The notes beneath the pieces were generated by a model that was not told the DNA's origin, made no database searches, and saw only the letters and a program-made list of their open reading frames with translations. Positions 39,972-41,718 of a stretch of 64,000 nt of DNA are shown here, one piece after another. The DNA is taken from positions 62,001 to 126,000 of the forward strand of contig NZ_QYYD01000001.1 of assembly GCF_003591005.1 (NCBI RefSeq). The letters run 5' to 3'. Numbering within the stretch: position 1 is the first letter of the stretch; every line of letters starts with the position of its first letter. The stretch is from Rhodopseudomonas palustris (GTDB taxonomy: Bacteria; Pseudomonadota; Alphaproteobacteria; Rhizobiales; Xanthobacteraceae). The position numbers were made by a program, and so were the translations under genes.

Positions 39972-40308
39972 ACCAGCTCGATGGCTGATTGAAACGATCC
40001 GCACCTTCCGCAACTGAGCTCGCATTCTGAGACGCCCAGATGCGACACACTCTTAGTTGCACGGCAGCACATTTTCCTCATCGGCGCATCCGCCTCGCAC
40101 GCGCCGTTTCGCCGTCAAACGCGCGCGGGGCAAATCGACCTTATTTTTCCGCACGCGTTGACTTGATGTCCGGCTCTGGCAGAGTTTGCCTCGTTCGATC
40201 TCGTTTGAGGTCGGATCGCGGGATTTGACGGAGCAGCTTGCGCCGCGGGTTTAATCGCTAAAGCGCCACGACATGGTCGTGGGCTCCTTATTACTTGGAG
40301 AACGACAC
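39972..40308. other. Gene-free stretch before the polycysteine leader
   Basis: I see no credible gene in these 337 bases. A TTGACT hexamer at 40158-40163 could be the -35 of a promoter for the leader peptide, but I cannot place a good -10 at the right distance. The ribosome site of the leader ORF (TTGGAG) ends at 40300. Confidence 0.4.
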
Positions 40309-40413
40309 ATGAAAGCCATCGTCTCGACGGCCCCTTCATCTGATCTCATCGCCTCCGGACTGCTCTCCTCCTCCTCGCGGTGTTGTTGCTGCTGTCGTTG
40401 TACGCTCGGCTGA
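40309..40413 (+). CDS. Polycysteine leader peptide (34 aa)
   Basis: This 34-codon frame has a good ribosome site (TTGGAG, 8 bp spacing) and the start MKAIVSTAPSSDLIASG. Near the end come four Ser, Arg and then the run CCCCCRC (codons TGT TGT TGC TGC TGT CGT TGT), four codons before the TGA. A cysteine run at the end of a tiny ORF is the design of ribosome-mediated attenuators that sense charged tRNA-Cys. Polycysteine uORFs of this kind are known before sulfur-assimilation genes in mycobacteria. Downstream are a 63-residue gene and metQ, a sulfur amino-acid uptake gene, which fits. The regulatory role is inferred. Confidence 0.7.
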   Translation: MKAIVSTAPSSDLIASGLLSSSSRCCCCCRCTLG

Positions 40414-40461
40414 CGCCGGCGCCATCCAGCACTTTTCGTATCACCGATCATCAGGATTACC

Positions 40462-40492
40462 AGGAGGCACTGGCTTTGCCAGTTGAGCACCC
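40462..40492 (+). promoter_or_regulatory. Ribosome site separated from its start by a perfect hairpin
   Basis: The strong ribosome site AGGAGG (40462-40467) is 25 bases before the ATG at 40493, too far for normal use. The perfect hairpin ACTGGC-TTT-GCCAGT (40469-40483) lies between them. Folding it leaves about 10 bases between ribosome site and ATG, the ideal distance. A TGA in frame at 40484-40486 rules out an upstream start for the same gene. Confidence 0.5.
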
Positions 40493-40684
40493 ATGTCCGA
40501 CGCTTACGTCATCGAAGTCCACTCACGCACGGCCGGCATCGTCGTCCGGGAAGGCCGCAACTACTGCTTCTTCGCCTCGCACCACGATTTCAACAGCCTC
40601 GAACGCCAAGAGTTCGGATCGCTGGTCGCGGCCCAGAAGGCGGCGACGCGGTGCGCCAAGGAAGCCCGCCCGAGGCTGCAATAA
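40493..40684 (+). CDS. Small conserved-looking protein (63 aa, hypothetical)
   Basis: This 63-residue soluble protein begins MSDAYVIEVHSRTAGIVVRE. The alternating hydrophobic pattern (YVIEVHSRTAGIVVREGRNYCFFA) suggests a beta-hairpin, and the C-terminal half (LVAAQKAATRCAKEA) a helix. I recognise no family; similar tiny proteins occur in this bacterial group. The start is fixed by an in-frame TGA just upstream. It lies between the polycysteine leader and metQ, so it may belong to the attenuated transcript. The 248 bp from here to metQ hold no gene, only an imperfect hairpin near 40801-40820. Confidence 0.65.
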   Translation: MSDAYVIEVHSRTAGIVVREGRNYCFFASHHDFNSLERQEFGSLVAAQKAATRCAKEARPRLQ

Positions 40685-40932
40685 GGCTCTTGGCAACGCG
40701 CATCTGCGCTGAAGACCGCGGCGACCGCACCATTGCTTCTGCACGGTTGGCCGTCGCGATCTGGCCGATCGCCGCTCTCTCCCATTTGCAAAACGAAAAT
40801 CTCCCGGTGGCTCCATCGGGAAAACAACAGCCTCGTTTCGCGGCCGAATTCAAAATGGCCGCTGGCGGCAGCGGCTTGTAGTTTCCGTCCACCTCGACCA
40901 CGCGATGGTCATCACTCGAAGGTTCGCATCAC

Positions 40933-41718
40933 ATGACACGGAAGTTTGTTTTCGCCGCTGCGGCGCTCGCCGCGCTGTCGGCGTTCTCGCCCGCCTTCGC
41001 CAGCGACGTGGTCCGCATCGGCACCACCGCGGGTCCTTACGCGGAGATTCTGCGCTACGCCGGCGACCTCGCCGCCAAGCAGGGAATCGAGCTGAAGATC
41101 ACCGAGTTCACCGACTACACGGTGCCGAACGCGGCGCTGGCGCAGGATGATCTCGACATCAACAATTTCCAGCACCAGCCTTATCTCGACAACCAGGTGG
41201 CGCAGCGCGGCTATGACATCGTCTCGATCGCCAAGAGCATCATCGTGCCGATCGGGATCTACTCCAACAAGGTCAAGAGCATCGCCGACATCAAGACCGG
41301 CGCCACGGCGGCGATTCCGAACGATCCGTCGAACGGTGCGCGGGCGCTGGAATTGTTCGAGAAGGCCGGCCTGATCAAGCTGAAGCCGGGCATCGGCATC
41401 AAGGCGACGATCGCCGATATCGCCGACAATCCGAAGAAGCTGAAGATCGTCGAACTCGACGCCGCCCAGCTGCCGCGCTCGCTGAACGACCTCGACTTCT
41501 CGGCCGTCAACCTCAACTACGCGCTCAGCGCCGGGCTCGACCCGAAGACGGCCTTGCTGCTCGAGGACGCCGACACCAATTGGAATCTGGTGTTCGCGGT
41601 CCGCGCCAAGAACAAGGACAATCCGGTACTGAAGAAGTTCGTCGAGATCTATCGCTCGCCGGAAGTCAAAGCCTTCACCGAGCAGCGCTTCAACGGCACC
41701 ATCCTCACCACCTGGTGA
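40933..41718 (+). CDS. metQ: MetQ/NlpA-family methionine-binding protein
   Basis: This 261-residue periplasmic protein of the NlpA/MetQ family binds methionine for the MetNI importer. A signal peptide (FVFAAAALAALSAFSPAFA) leads into VVRIGTTAGPYAEILRYA. Family blocks include DDLDINNFQHQPYLDNQVA, VPIGIYSNKVKSIADI and AIPNDPSNGARALELF. There is no lipobox cysteine, so it appears soluble rather than a lipoprotein. MetN and MetI are not next to it; the following gene encodes a PaaK-like ligase. The polycysteine leader 0.5 kb upstream suggests sulfur control. Confidence 0.92.
   Translation: MTRKFVFAAAALAALSAFSPAFASDVVRIGTTAGPYAEILRYAGDLAAKQGIELKITEFTDYTVPNAALAQDDLDINNFQHQPYLDNQVAQRGYDIVSIAKSIIVPIGIYSNKVKSIADIKTGATAAIPNDPSNGARALELFEKAGLIKLKPGIGIKATIADIADNPKKLKIVELDAAQLPRSLNDLDFSAVNLNYALSAGLDPKTALLLEDADTNWNLVFAVRAKNKDNPVLKKFVEIYRSPEVKAFTEQRFNGTILTTW

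Follow-up and report, generated by a model that had tools for sequence, protein, structure and literature searches.

A SAM-II-like aptamer with an inserted hairpin precedes a conserved cysteine-ended leader peptide upstream of alphaproteobacterial sulfur genes

Comparison of related loci indicates that the short open reading frame ending in cysteine codons in the window, a 64,000-nucleotide stretch of Rhodopseudomonas palustris DNA, is a real and conserved leader peptide that is coupled to a variant of the SAM-II aptamer and stands before sulfur genes. In a BLAST of the region the strongest conservation is found not in the ORF but in the 75 bases 5' of it. The most economical reading is one of two sensors. 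We think it reasonably likely that the leader has two inputs, a SAM-II-derived aptamer being coupled to a Cys attenuator that controls the sulfur genes. We also lean slightly towards the wider view of a single mRNA leader, widespread in alphaproteobacteria, in which two sulfur-metabolic end-products are read together: SAM by an aptamer of a new SAM-II subclass bearing the inserted hairpin, and charged Cys-tRNA by the Cys-run leader peptide. On this view the leader would be a logic gate that governs genes of sulfur uptake along with the uncharacterised family of 63-residue proteins. The positions of the features in the window are given in Table 1.

Table 1 Features of the aptamer, the leader and the downstream genes in the window
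Feature	Position	Strand	Remarks
Whole SAM-II-like aptamer with inserted hairpin	40213-40287	+	97 bits with model R1 (built from the same family)
P1 5' strand CGCGG	40217-40221	+	Pairs with CCGCG at 40243-40247; paired in 100% of 63 sequences
AUUUGA, equivalent of the SAM-II third strand lining the ligand pocket	40223-40228	+	Near-invariant; role from PMC6061858
P2a pseudoknot 5' strand GGAGC	40230-40234	+	Pairs with GCUCC at 40283-40287
GCUUGC, P2b pocket strand	40236-40241	+	Pairs with GCUAA; 99.2% of cells paired, near-invariant
GCUAAA pocket strand	40257-40262	+	Invariant in compared elements
Inserted hairpin CCACGAC-aug-GUCGUGG	40266-40282	+	Lacking in canonical SAM-II; 98% of cells paired
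Shine-Dalgarno (SD) GGAG of leader	40297-40300	+	Complementary to P2a 3' strand CUCC
Leader ORF	40309-40413	+	ATG at 40309, 34 codons, product MKAIVSTAPSSDLIASGLLSSSSRCCCCCRCTLG
Cys run CCCCCRC near leader end	40381-40401	+	Codons TGT TGT TGC TGC TGT CGT TGT
Hairpin ACUGGC-UUU-GCCAGU just 5' of small gene	40463-40480 (approximate)	+	Read from sequence
63-codon gene, first structural gene	40493-40684	+	Family without Pfam or NCBIfam model
metQ, methionine-type substrate-binding protein	40933-41718	+	PF03180 (Lipoprotein_9), E 4e-86

The conserved bases resemble a SAM-II-derived aptamer variant and would be expected to bind SAM. A scan of the whole window against Rfam at gathering thresholds gave a tRNA as its sole match; the best Rfam match of the element itself is SAM_alpha (RF00521), at 16.5 bits against a cut-off of 36. 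The low score is explained by the last strand of the pseudoknot, GCUCC, having been displaced downstream by the inserted hairpin. The same genome also holds two canonical SAM-II elements, scoring 85–89 bits. The pocket strands AUUUGA, GCUUGC and GCUAAA are near-invariant in sets of 63 and 83 aligned elements, and from the structures of SAM-II and SAM-V the U in the GCUAAA strand would read the SAM adenine (PMC6061858). The inserted hairpin is present in the aligned elements between the pocket strand and the P2a 3' strand; the distance from P1 to GCUAAA is ~ 9 nt, and the hairpin sits elsewhere.

The architecture of the aptamer is shown by comparison of 63 distinct elements, in which 96.5% of cells preserve the pairs proposed for P1, P2a, P2b and the inserted hairpin. 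Double changes occupy 33 cells; shuffles gave 11.0, none of the 500 reaching 33, and sliding the partners gave no more than 12. P2a, whose pairing lies outside the covariance model, is paired in 88% of cells and has A-U to G-C double changes in 9 sequences together with other compensations. The closing pair of the inserted hairpin covaries between A-U and G-C in 15 sequences, the lengths of its arms and loop being highly variable. P1 has a single double change, C-G to U-A (L245); both P1 and the pocket hardly vary and so give little covariation signal. The covariation supports the pseudoknot.

The covariance model R1, built from the family of the window element, finds matches in 61 of 297 genomes of the bacterial family, 80 of 397 of the order and 69 of 385 of the class (48 of 277 genera in the class sample). 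A phylum-wide sample gave alphaproteobacterial matches only, the share of sampled genomes that lie outside the class being uncertain. Pattern scanning of named genomes found 107 stretches, in Bosea, Microvirga, Labrys, Rhodopseudomonas, Rhodoplanes, Kaistia and others; the pattern required an exact core, so that the invariance of the core in these loci is in part a product of how they were chosen, and did not include the leader. The window locus was also found in named Rhodopseudomonas genomes. The SAM_alpha scores of the other variant elements are graded, mostly 19–34 bits, and only L240 and L244, at 36.8 bits, exceed the SAM_alpha cut-off; both have Cys leaders.

The 34-codon ORF with its ribosome site and cysteine codons is exactly as described in the earlier note, which had set as a check that the Cys run should be kept in relatives with variable flanks. 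This is what we have found. At 12 loci of the same genus the position of the ORF is constant, its body and length vary (29–55 residues) and the terminal Cys cluster stays (RCFCCPCTLG, CCCCCPRALD, LCCRCRMILG, CCCCCRPALD and RCCRCRGSLD). To look more widely, we took at each locus the nearest ATG with an SD 3' of the element, blind to Cys. In 78 of 85 non-redundant loci it opens an ORF of no more than 70 codons; Cys is present in 76 of these leaders, and 58 have two or more. Within the last eight residues the Cys share is 22.4%, compared with 3.7% in the rest of the leader and an expectation of 3.6% from base composition. The loci are related, and the binomial p of 2e-34 for this enrichment therefore overstates their independence. 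By frame, the share is 10.0% in that of the leader and 4.9% and 2.2% in the other two, and both Cys codons are used, UGU 119 times and UGC 66 times. The leaders range from 6 to ~ 64 residues; examples are MTGSVLRPVEPLRRSMMCCCRR in Bosea, MIVVSGMDIEKPDGKMCCGCCCC in Labrys, and MTCIEHC, MTRLLC and MMSHCCCP. Other families have leaders such as MNTLPIPVTSASCYCRMGTCC and MNTDREIRILITALCCGGTCC, and outside the family Cys-ended leaders are found at L245, L246, L247 and L255.

The association with the aptamer variant is specific. None of 31 canonical SAM-II loci of the same family has a Cys leader, and in most of them metY, metX or metA comes directly next; the Cys leader therefore belongs to the hairpin variant and not to SAM-II generally. 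The variant element does occur without a Cys leader at some metZ, metX or cysG loci of other lineages, among them metZ and cysG loci of other orders. In Rhodoplanes (L062-L064, L106, L173 and L197) it lies directly before a gene of the 63-residue type, again with no Cys leader. Elements of this kind count against the two-input reading.

The genes that follow define a sulfur regulon. Both genes reported downstream of the leader, that of 63 residues and metQ, are present; metQ matches the MetQ models of NCBIfam at scores under their cut-offs. When downstream clusters were named by Pfam, NCBIfam or likeness to named members, the pattern-scan loci gave MetQ 65 times, the small-protein family, which includes the 63-residue protein of the window, 46 times, MetN 38 times and MetI 27 times. 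Elsewhere the genes downstream are metY, metX, metZ, cysG, those of SsuA/TauA (sulfonate)-type binding proteins and of a rhodanese, and an FMN reductase gene accompanied by that of a luciferase-type monooxygenase. The sulfur-related setting proposed from the window alone thus extends across the class, and the small-protein family stands after the leader in most of its 46 loci. The family also occurs in distant lineages. The 63-residue protein has no match in Pfam or NCBIfam. Structure prediction (pLDDT 92) gives it a sheet of three strands plus two helices; a Foldseek search of the PDB with this fold found nothing significant (best E 1.1), and the Bacillus subtilis protein YkuJ (Z 4.8) is a weak lead only. 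Further DNA matches to the 63-codon gene in the same genome (G000:C34:23666-23868 and G000:C1:102847-102990) are likely paralogs. In several Rhodopseudomonas genomes metQ is joined, at a distance of a few kb and in the opposite orientation, by a second metQ-like gene (e.g. G003:C1:668451-668983). In the window the small gene and metQ are separated by 249 nt, and a terminator-like hairpin at 40857-40876, ~ 57 nt 5' of metQ, means that metQ may be transcribed or attenuated apart from the small gene.

The earlier note had read the locus as a cysteine-responsive attenuator. That reading stands in so far as the Cys run is kept and sulfur genes lie downstream, but it overlooked the most conserved part, the SAM-II-like aptamer directly 5' of the leader, and cysteine is therefore probably not the sole input. 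In the two-input leader that we propose, the pseudoknot, stabilised by SAM and placed directly 5' of the leader ribosome site, would set the loading of ribosomes on the leader. The terminal Cys codons would set how long ribosomes dwell there, scarce Cys-tRNA holding them on the leader. A ribosome so held would keep the next start region, that of the 63-residue protein followed by metQ or metNIQ, unfolded, whereas termination at the leader stop would let it fold shut. The predicted net outcome is highest expression when both SAM and cysteine are low.

The direction of the first step is where the two-input reading meets a rival. That SAM lowers ribosome loading on the leader is the sign that we tentatively prefer, following SAM-II precedent (metX, and metA of Sinorhizobium meliloti, where SAM-II acts translationally at a distance; PMC9373788). 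The pseudoknot ends ~ 9 nt 5' of the leader SD, and once the P2a 3' strand is taken the opening energy of the SD falls from 2.6 to 1.1 kcal/mol in the window and from 3.3 to 2.25 kcal/mol in the mean of 86 loci. Capture of this strand thus eases the SD by ~ 1 kcal/mol, by which SAM would favour leader translation, opposite to the sign given above. In a scheme with the same two sensors and this step reversed, SAM would capture the anti-SD CUCC in P2a and free the leader SD, and leader translation would then shut the next gene unless ribosomes stalled at cysteine. Besides the complementarity of the P2a 3' strand to the SD and the opening energies, it is favoured by altered P2a strands that still pair with altered SD regions (L065, L036 and L183). 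However, CUCC complements any SD of GGAG type and may pair here by coincidence; the effect is also small, and at loci without a leader SAM would have to activate metZ and metX, contrary to SAM-II precedent. We consider the reversed step rather unlikely. As to the second step of the two-input reading, the 3' part of a leader shows greater complementarity to its own start region than to those of other loci (− 37.3 vs − 35.1 kcal/mol, permutation p 1.5e-4). Against dinucleotide shuffles the same complementarity is weak (mean z − 0.68), and it is absent in most Bosea and Microvirga loci. A modelled ribosome opens the start region by ~ 2 kcal/mol in mid-leader and by 0.4 at the stop codon; in such footprint modelling, masking the Cys codons had no greater opening effect on the start region than masking codons elsewhere in the leader (p 0.68). 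The mutually exclusive hairpins anticipated at 40370-40500 find lineage-dependent support only: strong pairing of leader and start region is confined to some lineages (L073, L180, L094/L095, L187, L115 and L111), and a ribosome on the Cys codons does no better than one elsewhere. A classical two-hairpin attenuator was considered for these positions and rejected, with no consistent structure found. The poor support for a ribosome-access hairpin favours a leader that would act instead on transcription, its translation being coupled to Rho-dependent or intrinsic termination, and SAM-II switches are mostly transcriptional (PMC6061858). In the window, however, no intrinsic terminator was found between the leader and the small gene, and we give this route a low probability, though not a negligible one. 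A simple scan of the window found no promoter of sigma-70 type upstream of the aptamer. GC-rich hairpins like that just 5' of the small gene are, as read from the sequence, also found before it in relatives.

The remaining alternatives concern the meaning of the Cys codons themselves. Recurrent CC and CxC patterns and the conservation of the ORF would be expected if a SAM-II-type riboswitch were joined to a small functional peptide, binding metal or taking part in redox, with no attenuator. The body of the peptide is unconserved, its length varies widely, down to leaders that are just MTCIEHC or MTRLLC, and the cysteines are at the end, as a leader would have them; a functional peptide is thus improbable. 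It is more improbable still that the codons are a by-product of an RNA motif, UGUUGUCG, read by a non-ribosomal factor. UGUCG does recur in several groups, but Cys is enriched in one frame with both of its codons in use, and some leaders end in Cys without UGUUGUCG.

Among the closest known systems is SAM-II itself (SAM_alpha, RF00521), which has the same P1, the same H-type pseudoknot of P2a and P2b, the AUUUG, GCUUGC and GCUAAA strands and a place before alphaproteobacterial sulfur genes (PMC1273637). What sets the variant apart is an additional hairpin, variable in length, that separates GCUAAAG from the P2a 3' strand, together with scores that are mostly below the cut-off. The SAM-II pocket is placed in the strands kept here, and no helix is described at the position of the inserted hairpin (PMC6061858). 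Reported SAM-II targets are metA, metX, metY and metZ, and the available part of PMC4239095 does not name metNIQ; the variant is alike in type of target, being upstream of metNIQ, metX, metY and metZ, and of cysG as well. SAM-V has the same pocket and pseudoknot, bears an extra stem-loop, P3, and is translational, but P3 lies between P1 and P2, whereas the hairpin of the variant is between P2b and P2a (PMC6061858). The SAM-II long loops family (RF01726) is likewise a relative of SAM-II with longer loops; unlike the variant, it is described in Bacteroidetes and marine samples, and the variants score 22.7–24.2 bits against its cut-off of 44. On the leader side, the mycobacterial polycysteine ORFs (Canestrari 2020, as cited in PMC13236596), reported to be cysteine-responsive and leaderless, are also short ORFs with consecutive Cys codons before sulfur genes. 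As so described they differ in being leaderless, the variant leader being SD-led behind a SAM-II-like aptamer, and the comparison gave no sign of shared descent. In S. meliloti metA a SAM-II switch is similarly followed by an SD with AUG1 and by a downstream start; there the aptamer is canonical, AUG2 is in frame and no Cys leader is mentioned (PMC9373788). A literature search, with most subscription journals outside it, gave no description of the hairpin variant or of a SAM-II and cysteine-leader pair. If the two-input reading is true, it would add a SAM-II subclass mostly missed by Rfam 15, a candidate regulator for alphaproteobacterial metNIQ, an unusual wiring of a metabolite aptamer to an amino-acid-sensing leader peptide, and an unannotated small protein family tied to sulfur control.

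In Microvirga (e.g. L103:3942-4023) the 3' strand of the inserted hairpin, CCUCGUGG, has two complementary partners, its own 5' strand and the CACGAGG of the leader SD region, which makes it a clear candidate for an alternative hairpin. At three loci, L242:1623-1701 (−), L251:1357-1435 and L258:1621-1698 (−), a SAM-II-like element scoring 28.6–35.1 bits lies ~ 110–140 nt upstream of the hairpin-bearing variant, and in L242 and L258 a T-run follows a GC-rich stem between the two. In these pairs a SAM switch acting on transcription may stand in tandem with one acting on translation.
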